Shown here one piece after another: positions 2,787-28,867 of a DNA stretch of 28,867 bases. Under the pieces are notes generated by a model. The model had not been told where the DNA came from and did not search any database. It saw only the letters and a program-made list of their open reading frames with translations. The DNA lies in IMG/VR virus record IMGVR_UViG_3300020055_002073, positions 1-28,867 of that record, one strand, 5' to 3'. Made by a program: the position numbers and the translations under genes. Position 1 is the first letter of the stretch; every line of letters starts with the position of its first letter. The stretch comes from a virus.

Positions 2787-3899
2787 TTAAACTATATAAA
2801 TCTGACGTGGAAGAGCTCTGTATTGTAGTTGTTTGTTCAGACTTTCAGCTTGATTTGCCTTAACTTCCATCATTTTATCAGGACGGAGTCTTTCTAATCT
2901 TAATTTTAATTCCTCTTCTAATTTAGACTTCTCATCTTTTGATTCACTCAATAATGAATCGTATTCTAATTGAAGTTCAGAATCAGGAGTTTTAAGATTA
3001 CCGCTAAATTTACCTCTTACTCTACCTAATGTTTCTTTGACGTAGGCGGTAAACCATCTACGAACCCAAGTTTGTGCGGGTGAGTTAAGTTCATCCCATC
3101 TTAAGTTATCTAAGTTAACGTCAGAAGGAAGACGAACGATATCGGGGTTTTCGGCTAAACAAGATTCCCTATCATCTGTTTCGTAATACCAATACCACAC
3201 ACGGTATTCGTTGTTTGCTATATTACCAAAATCGAACTTACCACCTGGTACATTATAAAGGTGGACTGCTTTTTTACCTTCAGGAAGTGCGGTTACTCTA
3301 TAAGTAAGTTCACCACCGATAAGTCTTCTTTTGATATTGATGTCTTGCATCCTCAATAAGATATCAAATGCTGGTGTAACGAAGTAGTTACCTTGACCAC
3401 CCATTTGTGAGAAACCGGCACCACCACCGAGACCGATACCACCAAATCCTCCGAAACCACCCATGAATGGGTCGAAGAATGCGGCGTCTAACTCTGCTCT
3501 TGTAAACCATAACAATTCGTTAAGTTCACGACCGGCAGGGATTTCATAAATCTGTTGGTTTCTTTGTAGGTCGATGTAGTCCTTTTTAAGAACTGAATCT
3601 CCACCAGCTTGTAGGCCAACAATCTTAGAATAAGCGTAAGTGTATTGTGTTTCCCAATCTAAAGAACGAGTAATAAGTGCTTTGGCAACAGATTGAGTAT
3701 CTTGATTTAGTCCGTATAGAGATGTCCATTGAGACTCAATTAACCAATCATTTACATATTGAGAATAGTCTTCAACAGATAATTCCAATAATGAATCCAT
3801 CATCTCATCTTCAATCTCAATACCTCTAAGAGGAGCACCAAGAAGGTGACGAATTCTCGTATAAAGTTTGGTTCTTTGTGGTTCTGTAATAATTGACAT
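2787..3899 (-). CDS. Probable neck / head-tail connector protein (gp13-like)
   Basis: A 370-residue protein. The region around residues 277-300 (WVRRWFTAYVKETLGRVRGK) resembles the helical segment of T4-type neck proteins, in which a W..R/K..A..KE.LG..R.K pattern precedes a short loop. This is recognition by eye, not by search. Residues 146-170 form a glycine/phenylalanine-rich stretch, probably a flexible loop. Residues 310-350 are strongly charged and likely a helical or coiled-coil tail. The start follows a TATTTATAA box by 13 bases, and the helicase and dismutase-fusion genes are upstream on the same strand. Alternatives are another connector or a portal-associated protein. Confidence 0.55.
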   Translation of the reverse strand: MSIITEPQRTKLYTRIRHLLGAPLRGIEIEDEMMDSLLELSVEDYSQYVNDWLIESQWTSLYGLNQDTQSVAKALITRSLDWETQYTYAYSKIVGLQAGGDSVLKKDYIDLQRNQQIYEIPAGRELNELLWFTRAELDAAFFDPFMGGFGGFGGIGLGGGAGFSQMGGQGNYFVTPAFDILLRMQDINIKRRLIGGELTYRVTALPEGKKAVHLYNVPGGKFDFGNIANNEYRVWYWYYETDDRESCLAENPDIVRLPSDVNLDNLRWDELNSPAQTWVRRWFTAYVKETLGRVRGKFSGNLKTPDSELQLEYDSLLSESKDEKSKLEEELKLRLERLRPDKMMEVKANQAESLNKQLQYRALPRQIYIV

Positions 3900-3912: not shown

Positions 3913-3921
3913 TTATAAATA
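3913..3921 (-). promoter_or_regulatory. Probable late promoter box upstream of the neck-like gene
   Basis: Read on the minus strand the sequence is TATTTATAA, extended here to TATTTATAAATA. It ends 13 bases before the ATG at 3899. The same box in the same orientation precedes several other genes in the window. Confidence 0.6.
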
Positions 3922-3936: not shown

Positions 3937-5478
3937 TTATTTAGGATTTACCCAACTATCTACAGGGAAGGTAAATCTACCATTAACAATCTGTGTATCG
4001 TCGTTTTTGAATACGATGGTACCTTTGGAGTCACTGTGGAAAGCAATATAGTCAGTTGAATATGGTTTTACGTTACCTGTTCCATAAACTACGATTCTAC
4101 CTTCTTCTTCATCGTGACCGTTGAAAGGTTTAATTTGGATAGTTTTAGTTTGACCATCAATTTCAACGGTAGCATCAACTCCACCAATCATATCGTCTTT
4201 ACCTCCGAGTTCACCCACTTTGAATACCTTCTTTGTATCAAAGATATCCTTCATGTTTACAACCGCTTTGAGTTCTCTTTCATCCCCGAACTTATTTGAC
4301 TTATCTAATGAAGCCATAATTGTTTGGAATGTTGCAGAATCTTGGTTGAAAATACGGTGTCTGAACTGAACCATGAGGTTAATCATTCTTTGAACTTCGT
4401 ATAGTTGACCTTTGAAGTCCTTATCTATAAAGTTCAATGGGTCTTGTCCGTAGTGTTTTAGAACTGCATTGAGGTCGTTAACCAAGATACAGAACGCACT
4501 ATAGTTGGTGTTTAGTTTGTTGATTACCGAACGACCAGGTTGTTCAAAGTCGTAGATACCTGACATCTGACCTTGAGCGTATTGGTTTTTATCATAGTAG
4601 AAATCAGAGAATACCTCTTTTAAGATATCCATGATAGCATACATAAATTTCTTCTTCACCTGAGGGTTTTTGTTGAATATCATTCTGTATGTATTCACCT
4701 GTTTTGGAGAACACCCACGTGATACACCTTCAGTGATAAGTTCTTTTACCACTCTTGATTCGTTTAGTTTACCCTTTTGAAATTGGTCAAACTGTTTGTT
4801 GACGAATGACCAGTTGATTACATCAAAGAAGTTATCAACGTATTCGTCCCTTTTGTTTTTGTATTTTAAGTAGTAAGCGTGTTCCCACAAATCCAACCCT
4901 AATAGTGGAATACCACCATTTTTCATGGTGTTCATCATTGGGTTATCTTGATTTGAGGTGGTCATTACTTTTACGTCACCACTCTTTGTTAATACCAACC
5001 ATACCCAACCTGAGCCGAATTGTTGTTTTGCTTTGTTCTTAAATTCTTTTTTGAAATTAGCGTAAGTCTTAAACTTCTTCTTAATCTTATCTAAAACAGG
5101 ACCTGTTGGTTCTTGTTTTTTTGGTGATAACATTTGCCAAAATAGTTCGTGGTTGTAAGCTCCACCCGCATTGTTTCTGATGGTTCTGTTGTAACGAGAT
5201 ATACCTTTGATAAGAAGTTCCAAATCTAAGTCTTTGTCTTTGACTGACTTCAGAGCGTTGTTGAGTTTCTTAATATACCCTTTGTAATGTTGATTGTAGT
5301 GAACATTCATTGTCTCTTTGTCAATGAATTGGCCTAATGAAGAATAAGAATACGGTAACTTAATTGCCGTTATCCTTTTCATTTTCTTTTCTTGTTCTTG
5401 AATTATTTCTTTTTTTTCAGAATCCGAGATTTGTTTTTCTATCTCATGGATTCTTTGTTGGCTTTTTTTGAATTCCAT
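3937..5478 (-). CDS. Mn-type superoxide dismutase domain fused to a C-terminal domain of possible PD-(D/E)XK nuclease type
   Basis: A 513-residue fusion. Residues about 38-230 form a full-length Fe/Mn superoxide dismutase domain: the LPYSYSSLGQFID start, NAGGAYNHELFW, GSGWVWLV and LDLWEHAYYLKYKNKR. All four metal ligands are present (H60, H110, D196, H200), matching E. coli SodA H26, H81, D167 and H171. The second-shell residues H64, Y68, W158, Q177 and E199 are also kept. Gly106 with Gln177 is the MnSOD pattern. This domain should convert superoxide to oxygen and peroxide. Residues 1-35 are a charged helix with no signal peptide. Residues 235-390 are helical and unrecognised. Residues 400-455 carry E402, D435 and Q448-I-K450, a spacing that could be a PD-(D/E)XK core with Gln for Glu; this second assignment is tentative. 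The gene sits in a late operon beside a neck-like gene. Confidence 0.9.
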   Translation of the reverse strand: MEFKKSQQRIHEIEKQISDSEKKEIIQEQEKKMKRITAIKLPYSYSSLGQFIDKETMNVHYNQHYKGYIKKLNNALKSVKDKDLDLELLIKGISRYNRTIRNNAGGAYNHELFWQMLSPKKQEPTGPVLDKIKKKFKTYANFKKEFKNKAKQQFGSGWVWLVLTKSGDVKVMTTSNQDNPMMNTMKNGGIPLLGLDLWEHAYYLKYKNKRDEYVDNFFDVINWSFVNKQFDQFQKGKLNESRVVKELITEGVSRGCSPKQVNTYRMIFNKNPQVKKKFMYAIMDILKEVFSDFYYDKNQYAQGQMSGIYDFEQPGRSVINKLNTNYSAFCILVNDLNAVLKHYGQDPLNFIDKDFKGQLYEVQRMINLMVQFRHRIFNQDSATFQTIMASLDKSNKFGDERELKAVVNMKDIFDTKKVFKVGELGGKDDMIGGVDATVEIDGQTKTIQIKPFNGHDEEEGRIVVYGTGNVKPYSTDYIAFHSDSKGTIVFKNDDTQIVNGRFTFPVDSWVNPK

Positions 5479-5492
5479 ACGTTTTCATTTTC

Positions 5493-5501
5493 TTATAAAT
5501 A
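5493..5501 (-). promoter_or_regulatory. Probable late promoter box upstream of the dismutase fusion
   Basis: On the minus strand the sequence is TATTTATAAGAAAA. The box ends 14 bases before the ATG at 5478, the same spacing seen before the tape measure, 1528-residue baseplate and 74-residue genes on the other strand. Confidence 0.6.
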
Positions 5502-5522: not shown

Positions 5523-7280
5523 TTACCTTCTTGAAATTGTATTTAAGATTTCCTCTACAATGGTTCCTTTGTCCACGTTGTCACCCATAACTGTTTCAAA
5601 TACATTTTTCTTGTTTGATAAGATGTCATAAATAACACCTTCAATAGTATTTTCAAAAATTGGATAAAAAACGGATACGTTTGATTTCTGTCCATATCTA
5701 TATGCTCGGTCTTCTGCTTGTGAGTGGTCAGAAGGAACGAACGAGAGGTCATTCATAATAACGGCTTCTGCTGCGGTCAGTGTGATACCCACACCTGCGG
5801 CTTTGAGGTTACCAACAAATACCATTACCTTTTCATTATTTTGGAATTCATCCACCGAGTGTTGTCTCGCTGGTTTACTCATTCTTCCGTCCAATGCGAC
5901 GGCAGCCTTTCCAAAGTGTGATTTTATTTGGTTTAATGTATCGGTAAAGTTGGTGAAGATAATAACTTTCTTTCCCTGTTCAATAGTATTTTGTGCAATC
6001 TCAATGGTGTCTCTAACCTTCTCTTCGGCGATGACTTGTCTTACTTTCATCAGTTTTGAGAATTGCACGGTTAATGAGGATGATTCCTCTGAGTTGTTGT
6101 CATACCAATCAAAATATTCCCCCATCAGGGCTTCGTATTGTTTTGACTTCAATCTTAGATAAACGGGTGTAAGAATTTTTTCAGGTAAATCTAAGATGTC
6201 TTCTTTTAATCTTCTTAGGACATGTGTCTTTGTTCGGTCTCTAAGTTCTGTTAGGTTGGACGCCCCATTGACATTCCATACCTTTCTGTTACCAACATTG
6301 AATTGGTAACCTTCACAATAACGAATGGCGTATGCCATCCAATTATAAGCGATAGGTGAGTCTACCAAATCTAATAAGTTGAAGTAGTTGATAGGACGAG
6401 AGGTCATCGGTGTACCAGTCAACAACCAAACCTTACCAACCTTCTTACAGATATCATTGGCAATCTTTGTTCTCTGTGCTTGTTTGTTTTGAATATAATG
6501 AGCTTCGTCAATAATCACCAAATCAAACTCTTCTTTCAATACCAAAGACTCTTTTACCTTCTTTAGGTCATGAAAGTTTTTAAGAATATCAAAGTTAATA
6601 ATGGTGAAGTCTGCAGGTTCCCATTTCTTTCCTTCAACAATAGAAACCTCTCTATCGGTATAATTTGCAATCTCACGTTGCCAGTTAATCTTAAGTGATG
6701 CGGGACATATGATTAAGATTTTCTTTGCACCTGTCTCTAACGCGGCAATTACTGTTGAGGTGGTTTTACCTAATCCCATATCGTCAGCAAGAATGTATTT
6801 GTCATTACCCACCAATTTTTCAACTGCAAGTTTTTGGTGTTCCAATGGTGGACGGTGAGAATACTTTGAGTAGTCTATTTCAACTTGTCTTTCTTTGTTT
6901 TGGATGATGGCGGCTCGTGGTAACCAAAAGTCATAAAGTTCTTGGTTCTCAAACAACTTACCGTAGATATGGAATGATTTGTCTTTTTCCACCAATATCT
7001 TTTCAACATAAATTTGAGTCGGTCTTTTGGTAAGGAGTTTTTCCTCCATCATCTTCTTTCCGAAGTATTCGTCCAACACCACCCATTTTCTTGCTATCTT
7101 TGGGGTGACATCGTGGAAGTCAATGATGTAGTCTGCCTGAGCACGAGTCATCTTAAAATGCTTTTTGATTTGCATTTTTTTCTTGATAGACAGGATATAA
7201 TTATTATACCCCTCATATTCCTCTAAAATACGAGTTGCCTTTATCTCAGGTATATTTGCTACAACTTTATTTTCTTCCAT
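5523..7280 (-). CDS. SNF2-family DEAH helicase / DNA translocase
   Basis: A 585-residue superfamily 2 ATPase of the SNF2 type. Walker A is DDMGLGKT (K172), the DEAH box is at 258-261, motif III is LTGTP near 287-291, and motif VI is Q521..R525..R528-x-G-Q531, as in SNF2 proteins. The compact two-lobe layout, with about 140 residues before the ATPase core and no large insertion, resembles the annealing-helicase-like SNF2 proteins of large phages. A role in fork remodelling, recombination or repair, as for UvsW in T4, is likely but inferred. It is the first gene of the leftward block and diverges from the connector-like gene with about 50 bases between the starts. No Shine-Dalgarno sequence precedes the start. 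Confidence 0.93.
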   Translation of the reverse strand: MEENKVVANIPEIKATRILEEYEGYNNYILSIKKKMQIKKHFKMTRAQADYIIDFHDVTPKIARKWVVLDEYFGKKMMEEKLLTKRPTQIYVEKILVEKDKSFHIYGKLFENQELYDFWLPRAAIIQNKERQVEIDYSKYSHRPPLEHQKLAVEKLVGNDKYILADDMGLGKTTSTVIAALETGAKKILIICPASLKINWQREIANYTDREVSIVEGKKWEPADFTIINFDILKNFHDLKKVKESLVLKEEFDLVIIDEAHYIQNKQAQRTKIANDICKKVGKVWLLTGTPMTSRPINYFNLLDLVDSPIAYNWMAYAIRYCEGYQFNVGNRKVWNVNGASNLTELRDRTKTHVLRRLKEDILDLPEKILTPVYLRLKSKQYEALMGEYFDWYDNNSEESSSLTVQFSKLMKVRQVIAEEKVRDTIEIAQNTIEQGKKVIIFTNFTDTLNQIKSHFGKAAVALDGRMSKPARQHSVDEFQNNEKVMVFVGNLKAAGVGITLTAAEAVIMNDLSFVPSDHSQAEDRAYRYGQKSNVSVFYPIFENTIEGVIYDILSNKKNVFETVMGDNVDKGTIVEEILNTISRR

Positions 7281-9108: not shown

Positions 9109-9132
9109 TTTTCTTAAATATTTATAAGAAAA
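9109..9132 (+). promoter_or_regulatory. Tail sheath promoter box inside a perfect inverted repeat
   Basis: The TATTTATAA box is at 9119-9127, 30 bases before the sheath ATG. It overlaps a perfect 8-base inverted repeat, TTTTCTTA at 9109-9116 and TAAGAAAA at 9125-9132, with an 8-base spacer. The dyad could be a binding site for a dimeric regulator; the neighbouring ribbon-helix-helix gene is an obvious but untested candidate. Confidence 0.5.
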
Positions 9133-12428: not shown

Positions 12429-12572
12429 ATGGAATTTAAGAAATCAAACTTAATGGAACACCTAAATGTAGAAACTAACGGTGTTAAAACATTTTCTGAA
12501 AAACCACAAAACATTGTGATTTCAGAAGAACAATTAGAAAGATTAATTGAGAGATTAAACGAAACAGAGTAA
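12429..12572 (+). CDS. Small 47-residue protein of unknown function
   Basis: A short open frame starting MEFKKSNLMEHLN and ending ISEEQLERLIERLNETE. The last 18 residues are a charged amphipathic helix with heptad-like Leu/Ile spacing, so it may form a coiled coil. It overlaps the next gene by one base (TAATG), which indicates translational coupling with the HAD-like enzyme. I do not recognise a family. The intact frame, A-rich start and coupling support it being real. Confidence 0.65.
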   Translation: MEFKKSNLMEHLNVETNGVKTFSEKPQNIVISEEQLERLIERLNETE

Positions 12573-13426
12573 TGATTCGTAAAATCTTAAAAGAATATAT
12601 TGAGGAAAAAGAACTCAAGGAAGGTTTTGACGACGTGGGTCGTCCTGATATGAAGTATTATGCTTTTGATTGGGATGATAATATTATGATGATGCCCACA
12701 CAGATTATCGTTAAAACTGAGGAAGGTAACGAGGTAGGTATGTCTACTGAGGACTTTGCGGAGTATCGTAATATAATTGACAAGGAACCTTTTGAATACA
12801 AAGGTGAGACAATTGTTGGTTATGCGGATAATCCATATAGGAATTTTACCACTGAAGGTGATGCACAGTTTATTGTTGATTCTATGATTGCAGATGTTGG
12901 TCCATCTTGGGACGACTTTGTTGAAGCAATCAACGGAGGTTCAATTTTCTCAATAATCACAGCTAGAGGACACACCCCGTCTGTTTTGAGGGACGCAGTA
13001 TATAATATGATTATGACCAATCATAAAGGTATTAACAAGGAGGAATTGGTTTCAAACCTTAAAAAATTCCGTGATTTTGCGGGTGAAGAGGGTATGACTG
13101 ACGAAGACTTAATTGAAAAGTATTTGGATATGTTGAAGTTCCACCCTGTAACTTATGGTGAGGGAAGTGCTGCAAACCCTGAAGAAGGTAAAATTAAAGC
13201 CTTACAAGGATTTGTTTCTTATGTGAAGGATATGGCTTCAAGATTGAGACAAAGAGCGTTCTTTAAGGATGATGTAAACAACAATTTTGTTCCTAAGATT
13301 GGTTTTTCAGATGATGACCCAGCAAATTTAAAGGCTATCGGTGATTATTTGAAAAATGCTTATCCAGAGGGAGATAAACCAGTAAAGACTTATTTAACTA
13401 AAGGAGGAGAGAAAAAAGAAGTATAA
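12572..13426 (+). CDS. HAD-superfamily-like hydrolase (putative phosphatase)
   Basis: A 284-residue protein. Motif I is FDWDDNI (nucleophile D33, acid/base D35; Asn37 where Thr or Val is common). Motif II is IITARG (T130). A candidate motif III lysine is K207 or K209, and motif IV is GFSDDDP (D247-D249). The order and spacing fit a haloacid-dehalogenase-type Mg-dependent phosphatase; the cap would be residues 40-120. The first 18 residues (MIRKILKEYIEEKELKEG) form a separate charged helix. The substrate cannot be told from sequence; phage HAD enzymes include polynucleotide 3'-phosphatases and nucleotide phosphatases. It lies between the sheath and tube genes, which are adjacent in T4. Confidence 0.75.
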   Translation: MIRKILKEYIEEKELKEGFDDVGRPDMKYYAFDWDDNIMMMPTQIIVKTEEGNEVGMSTEDFAEYRNIIDKEPFEYKGETIVGYADNPYRNFTTEGDAQFIVDSMIADVGPSWDDFVEAINGGSIFSIITARGHTPSVLRDAVYNMIMTNHKGINKEELVSNLKKFRDFAGEEGMTDEDLIEKYLDMLKFHPVTYGEGSAANPEEGKIKALQGFVSYVKDMASRLRQRAFFKDDVNNNFVPKIGFSDDDPANLKAIGDYLKNAYPEGDKPVKTYLTKGGEKKEV

Positions 13427-28552: not shown

Positions 28553-28867
28553 ATGTCAGTAGATAATAAAATATTAGAAGAATTAAAAAGACATAACTCA
28601 ATCAACAAATATTTGACGGAGCAAGAAGCACCTGTTGACGCACCTGAAGGTGGTGATGATTTAGAGTTAGATATGGATGTTGATACGGATGCTGAAGAAA
28701 TTCCAGAACCTGTTGATATTGAGACTGACCCTGATGTTGAGAAAGTTGACGACGAGGGTAATGTTGAAGGTGAAGACATGGGTGGTGACACTGAAGAGTT
28801 AGAGATTACAGATTTAGTAAACAAGCAAAACGAAATCTCAGATAAACAAGATGAGTATATGGACTCA
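28553..28867 (+). CDS. Acidic protein, 3'-partial at the window edge
   Basis: The open frame starts MSVDNKILEELKRHNSINKY and runs off the window after 105 residues without a stop. A short N-terminal helix is followed by about 60 residues dominated by Asp and Glu with almost no basic residues, then ITDLVNKQNEISDKQDEYM, which looks like the start of a coiled coil. No family can be named from this part. Position after the baseplate genes and the helical sequence suggest a virion or assembly protein, which is inference. The start lacks a Shine-Dalgarno sequence and is preceded by an A run. Confidence 0.7.
   Translation, partial: MSVDNKILEELKRHNSINKYLTEQEAPVDAPEGGDDLELDMDVDTDAEEIPEPVDIETDPDVEKVDDEGNVEGEDMGGDTEELEITDLVNKQNEISDKQDEYMDS

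Follow-up and report, generated by a model that had tools for sequence, protein, structure and literature searches.

A superoxide dismutase-nuclease fusion of large T4-like phages and its possible packaging in the phage head

Results

The stretch of DNA that we analyzed, called the window here, is the 28,867-nucleotide IMG/VR virus record IMGVR_UViG_3300020055_002073. Positions 3937..5478 hold one 513-codon open reading frame encoding 513 amino acids plus a stop, as an earlier sequence-only reading had described; that reading missed that the gene lies on the minus strand, running from window position 5478 to 3937. The neighboring gene at 2787..3899 (minus strand), previously called neck-like, does match a head-tail adaptor family (PHROG 211) and has its own copy of the late promoter-like element TATTTATA. 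The same element lies at 5494..5501 on the coding (minus) strand of the fusion gene, 23 nt before the start codon, while the upstream neighbor, a UvsW-like helicase gene (5523..7280, minus strand), has no such element.

The protein begins with a leader (residues 1-28; 5395..5478, minus strand like all following segments) ending in EIIQE/Q, where the slash marks the point of possible cleavage; it is a putative capsid-targeting propeptide with an (I/L)xE site. The Fe/Mn superoxide dismutase (SOD) domain (residues 39-228; 4795..5364) is identified by Pfam and PDB matches, metal ligands, and the structural model. Linker residues 238-250 (4729..4767), with the sequence LNESRVVKELITE/G, form a second putative capsid-targeting-like segment and protease site at the border between SOD and nuclease. 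The C-terminal module (residues 251-513; 3940..4728) consists of a helical part and then a predicted PD-(D/E)XK-type domain, whose core (approximately residues 394-513; window 3940-4299) contains E402, D435, and Q448-x-K450.

Residues 39-118 match the Pfam family Sod_Fe_N (E 1.9e-20; 73.5 bits against a curated cut-off of 27) and residues 124-228 match Sod_Fe_C (E 6e-39; 132.7 bits against 20.9). The top PDB sequence matches are bacterial Mn or cambialistic SODs (E ~3e-54), and the match stops at residue 232. The three histidine and one aspartate ligands (H60, H110, D196, and H200) are where the sequence-only reading had placed them and are invariant among the aligned relatives, as is Q177 (in NQDNP), the Mn-type second-sphere glutamine equivalent to Gln146 of E. 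coli MnSOD. All ligand motifs were present in 69/69 distinct SOD-bearing relatives and the QDNP(L/M)M motif with the Mn-type glutamine in 66/69, and the bridging Glu/Tyr region is also conserved. In the full-length AlphaFold model (mean pLDDT 72.5) the N-terminal part has the SOD fold that the same reading had expected, with a TM-score of ~0.85 to the target when compared with MnSOD structures. The SOD part is under strong purifying selection, with dN/dS values of ~0.03-0.05 in pairs with the loci L003, L005, and L007; in the other two comparisons dS was saturated. Judged by its sequence, the segment of residues 39-228 is an MnSOD that keeps every metal ligand and is predicted to be active.

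For the C-terminal part, a nuclease core around D435 and Q448-x-K450 had been proposed. This pattern is present and invariant, and E402, unnamed in that proposal, is a third motif residue: E402, D435, and Q448-x-K450 do not vary across 42 aligned relatives, and all recur in a single-domain relative of 290 aa and ~23% identity, encoded by a 735 kb phage. Modeled alone from the 42-sequence alignment, residues 252-513 gave an AF2 pLDDT of 87.7 and a pTM of 0.80. Foldseek returned the homing endonuclease I-Ssp6803I (probability 0.99, E 1.3e-3), NhoI, and Hjc as top PDB matches, and the realigned structural neighbors were nearly all PD-(D/E)XK enzymes (Hjc, Z 8.1; Eco15I, 7.3; I-Ssp6803I, 7.2; HhaI; DpnI), the best being 2wcw (Z 8.1, rmsd 3.3, 100 aligned). 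The matches span residues 143-262 of the model (~394-513 of the protein), and for these last ~120 residues the PD-(D/E)XK core that had been suspected there is predicted at good confidence; the fold-match scores are modest, and the predicted assignment draws on the catalytic motif as well. Because the residues are invariant and the fold is predicted, we rejected a chance occurrence of the nuclease motif.

Searches with the C-terminal module produced only chance-level matches in Pfam and PHROGs, and a profile search of PDB sequences gave no solved chain with detectable similarity. One scan of ~85,000 cellular genomes found no copy, and a cellular origin of the module was rejected on this result. 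A scan querying with the relative from the 735 kb phage gave no confirmed matches. By these sequence comparisons, residues 251-513 represent a phage-specific, unnamed family of nuclease type, with predicted activity. The nuclease-type module also occurs as a divergent second copy, with a QIKPL motif and in proteins of 375-383 aa, at G027:C1:238411-238902 (L269:805-1932) and G001:C1:287530-288681, the latter with a TATTTATA element; one relative's genome has a divergent paralog away from the fusion locus.

A scan of IMG/VR added 20 loci that carry the fusion, 61-99% identical, with 2/20 truncated where the contig ends, and the fusion recurs at full length in dozens of independent contigs from many metagenomes at ~45-99% identity. 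Searching with the C-terminal module returned at least 452 relatives in IMG/VR. Among the best 80 of these, most have the leader, SOD, and C-terminal module (480-521 aa), and the others lack the SOD (277-294 aa); the three shortest members of the longer class begin inside the leader, the script having accepted ATG starts only. The locus order (UvsW-like helicase, fusion gene, neck-like gene, small gene, PolB) is conserved and is common to SOD-bearing and SOD-less members. Since separate assemblies contain this fusion between conserved neighboring genes, an assembly error joining two genes was rejected; the homolog comparison that the sequence-only reading had suggested thus points to one conserved gene. 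No cultured phage in the collection searched, from which near relatives of the window may be absent, carries the fusion.

In a quick maximum-likelihood tree of the C-terminal module, two changes in SOD presence or absence are needed. A SOD-less clade of 23 rows (SH-aLRT 99) is nested among SOD-bearing rows, and a second SOD-less group, L215 within a starred set of three, is nested likewise. An ancestral SOD-less state is thereby disfavored, on a quick tree whose root is unsure because the outgroup is very distant. With the same qualification, the SOD was lost at least twice while the leader and nuclease remained. In L215 and L216 the leader end and SOD start (MKKIEIEKL) are joined in frame to the linker (KSIISE/G), apparently an in-frame deletion scar of SOD loss; the scar is seen in L215, L216, and other 309-aa members. 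We found no second SOD elsewhere that might compensate for the loss in 10 SOD-less records of up to 308 kb. Conversely, at the same locus L021 has kept the SOD and lacks the nuclease module. The SOD is a removable domain within a larger nuclease family, a point missed by the sequence-only reading. In L021 the UvsW-like helicase (L021:7073-9889, minus strand) appears to be split by an intein-like insert at the Walker A motif (938 versus 585 aa), and the PolB (L021:12597-15644, minus strand) has an extra inserted domain.

Within the window, coding-strand copies of TATTTATA precede late and structural genes, including those for neck, sheath, and tube, by 22-43 nt; they lie at 3914-3921 and 5494-5501 for minus-strand genes and at 9119, 13500, 15029, 16918, and 28292 for plus-strand genes. 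Two relatives have the element ahead of 47/323 and 53/377 genes, compared with 3-15 for permuted motifs, and the genes so preceded include gp21 and portal-like genes. From its placement, TATTTATA is likely a late promoter element, and it differs from the T4 late element, TATAAATA.

Related contigs reach 297-318 kb. Relatives carrying the fusion gene encode gp21 (Peptidase_S77), a region that the 29 kb record of the window stops short of, and gp23, sought in eight related records, was found in three. Because related contigs of this size carry gp23 and gp21, we conclude that the viruses hosting the fusion are large T4-like phages. The gp23 of the relatives has SHLINE/AAN just before the Pfam match, at the expected mature N-terminus, which suggests that it is cleaved there. 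In T4, gp21 cuts C-terminal to glutamate, and capsid-targeting propeptides direct to the head both internal proteins and artificial cargo such as staphylococcal nuclease (PMC9026906, PMC5694885, PMC3012670); one example of a gp21 site is LIE-9 (PMC9026906).

The leader and linker of the fusion carry motifs resembling such sites. The site preferred by gp21 is (L/I)-x-Glu. The leader is variable in sequence, yet [IL]xE is present in 24/24 leader clusters as compared with 6.5 +/- 2.1 after shuffling (2000 shuffles, maximum 14 clusters), and in many divergent members the leader end takes the form (I/L)xE/MKKIGIEKLPYS. At the linker, 61/61 aligned sequences, with or without the SOD, have E250 and a hydrophobic P3 residue; among glutamates with a frequently hydrophobic P3, E199 alone is also near-invariant, and it belongs to the SOD active-site motif. 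In one SOD-less lineage (L210-L213) glutamine replaces the glutamate at the linker site, and the other sampled lineages keep the site. A regular expression for capsid-targeting-like segments matched the linker in 66/69 proteins and elsewhere in these proteins only the leader. The (I/L)xE motif is short, and the sites in the fusion are putative. A targeting-like segment in mid-protein is unusual, T4 propeptides being mostly N-terminal.

Three related genomes contain a family of leaders with similar ends, for example MAKKIIRLTESDIQKIVRNILNE/Q and MKKNVTLTESDLVRIINRVINE/G, defined by the pattern that also matches the linker. Its density is 1.35 per 1000 residues at N-termini versus 0.23 in protein bodies (~6-fold), and 27 N-terminal matches compare with 0-9 when the final glutamate is swapped for each of seven other residues. 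The regular expression and the leader tests were designed after inspecting the sequences, and related sequences are non-independent; because the pattern was shaped after inspection, we regard it as supportive, not decisive. A genome-wide, conservation-filtered scan for leader-like [ILVM]xE motifs showed no excess over control residues, and the association of leader-bearing genes with TATTTATA was weak and non-significant (7/26 versus 109/777, p = 0.08).

Similar N-termini were seen in other proteins. In relatives of 297 and 308 kb (L047-L061, L160-L175), leaders of the form xxxIIRLTESDLxxIVRRVLxE/ stand on many otherwise unrelated proteins, and this leader family may be a capsid-targeting code by which virion cargo is marked. 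Short leaders also precede the stand-alone SODs of two other phage backgrounds, with the ends LLLE/E (L021) and ILE/A (L265 and L266); the leader of the latter SOD (L265:2977-3606, L266:2977-3606), MKTFNQQISHILE/A, recalls T4 internal-protein propeptides, and the gene belongs to an unrelated phage that also encodes PhoH-like, radical-SAM, and NUDIX-like proteins. The window itself encodes a HAD-like protein (12572-13426) with the (I/L)xE-like N-terminus IEEKELKE/GFDD and an acidic protein (28553-28867, cut by the contig end) with INKYLTE/QEAP.

Discussion

The (I/L)xE sites and the late promoter-like motif, both missed by the sequence-only reading, suggest packaging in the head. We propose that the fusion is a late precursor that is targeted to the prohead, cut by gp21 at the (I/L)xE sites around the SOD, and packaged as its products, and we lean slightly toward this reading. 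The late-expressed precursor would consist, in order, of the leader, the MnSOD, a capsid-targeting-like helix, and the PD-(D/E)XK-type nuclease module. The leader, the linker helix, or both would bring it into the T4-like prohead, where a gp21-type protease would cut after E28, before the SOD, and after E250, behind it, so that MnSOD and nuclease module would lie separately in the capsid. The two would be enclosed together with the DNA and would probably enter the host on ejection; the SOD may clear superoxide near the phage DNA, and the nuclease may act on host or phage DNA. The computed support comprises the domain identities, the conserved catalytic residues, purifying selection, the late-type motif, the cleavage-like motifs, and the presence of gp21 and gp23. 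From these we infer catalysis, cleavage, packaging, injection, and benefit.

It is also conceivable, though we think it rather unlikely, that the protein acts uncut as a bifunctional enzyme in the late host cytoplasm, with the SOD guarding the cell or replicating DNA, the nuclease processing DNA, and (I/L)xE reflecting conservation of a helix or linker. The residues of both SOD and nuclease are intact, the genome-wide motif scan was negative, and a cytoplasmic SOD role is plausible because cultured jumbo phages (for example, the Pseudomonas PA5oct/Callisto group and Vibrio phage 2.275.O) have stand-alone SOD genes, which in the PA5oct/Callisto group adjoin clpX, ibpB, and clpS. However, both domain borders retain a motif ending in Glu, even where leaders diverge or the SOD is missing, and the plain-linker reading is disfavored because a plain linker would not need it; moreover, the late-type element of the fusion gene is common to head and tail genes.

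The constant part of the family invites another explanation, to which we assign a low probability: the C-terminal module would hold the older main function, as a junction-resolving or debranching nuclease that serves head filling as T4 endonuclease VII does, with the SOD a dispensable passenger. Every member of the C-terminal family that we examined has the module, and the SOD has disappeared at least twice; this constancy is, however, partly built in because the family was sampled by searching with the module, and L021 has a SOD at the same locus without it. Hjc Holliday-junction resolvases are among the best structural neighbors; since many nucleases share the PD-(D/E)XK fold, this similarity is no proof of resolvase activity. 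The gene adjoins a neck gene, and six large related records contain no Endonuclease_7 match over the cut-off and no RuvC match, so a head-filling resolvase role is possible, although these records are incomplete and the absence is weak evidence. That the SOD fold is instead reused as a non-catalytic, metal-binding structural module is very improbable. The fusion and its linkage to a structural gene would fit such a use, but the ligands, the Mn-type Gln motif (66/69), and the bridging Glu/Tyr region are conserved under strong purifying selection, and a structural need for the SOD is disfavored because two lineages have cleanly lost the domain.

Bacterial Mn/Fe SodA proteins (for example, of Sphingobacterium sp. 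T2, Clostridioides difficile, and Geobacillus) share with the SOD of the fusion both Pfam domains, the four ligands, and the Mn-type glutamine, at ~40-45% identity and a predicted-fold TM of ~0.85 to the target. They are single-domain cellular enzymes, whereas the phage late gene adds a leader before and a nuclease module after the SOD. The jumbo-phage enzymes of the PA5oct/Callisto group and Vibrio phage 2.275.O are likewise Fe/Mn SODs in large phages, but are encoded by separate, unfused genes in unrelated neighborhoods (~182-189 aa, 26-31% identical). In Pseudomonas phage Callisto, sodB (OR142618.1 81550-82098; L267) lies amid clpX, ibpB, clpS, and ftsH-like genes, a stress-protein cluster. 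The closest deposited entry is A0A6J5L953, an environmental protein of 501 aa with the same C-terminal fold (Foldseek E 1.1e-24, TM 0.89), and evidently the same kind of fusion; it is named only "superoxide dismutase [uncultured Caudovirales phage]", and its description does not include the second domain.

If our hypothesis is correct, the SOD-nuclease fusion would work like the T4 internal head proteins IPI-III and Alt and like T4 capsid-targeting-sequence fusions such as CTS-staphylococcal nuclease (PMC9026906, PMC3012670), with a probably late gene and a leader that ends in hydrophobic-x-Glu; a gp21-type protease is likewise encoded in the genomes of fusion-bearing relatives. Unlike these, the putative cargo here would be a natural MnSOD and a nuclease, with a second putative site between two folded domains. 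Known PD-(D/E)XK nucleases (I-Ssp6803I, NhoI/Eco15I, Hjc, and DpnI) match the C-terminal module in predicted core fold and in E...D...QxK; the module differs in its extra helical N-terminal half and has no detectable sequence similarity to them. In the literature searched, which covered few subscription journals, we found no report of a SOD-nuclease fusion or of a SOD with a prohead-protease leader. What this analysis adds is the recognition of the fusion and of how widely it occurs, the finding that the SOD is optional, a nuclease-type family without a name so far, and the proposal of head packaging.

The fusion belongs to large T4-like phages, a widespread aquatic group, and the family of unnamed phage nucleases that it defines comprises at least several hundred IMG/VR loci. 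Returning to the packaged precursor, its broadest form, in which MnSOD and nuclease are packed in the capsid as one protease-split precursor within a wider system of interchangeable (I/L)xE leaders and an antioxidant enzyme is delivered with the genome, has in our view not quite an even chance of being correct. If this is true, phage particles would contain a superoxide dismutase that is packaged there by nature, and oxidative stress would be directly linked to the entry of phages, or to their survival, in sunlit water. The leaders ending in (I/L)xE suggest a modular cargo-loading code for these phages, by which virion contents may be predictable from sequence.
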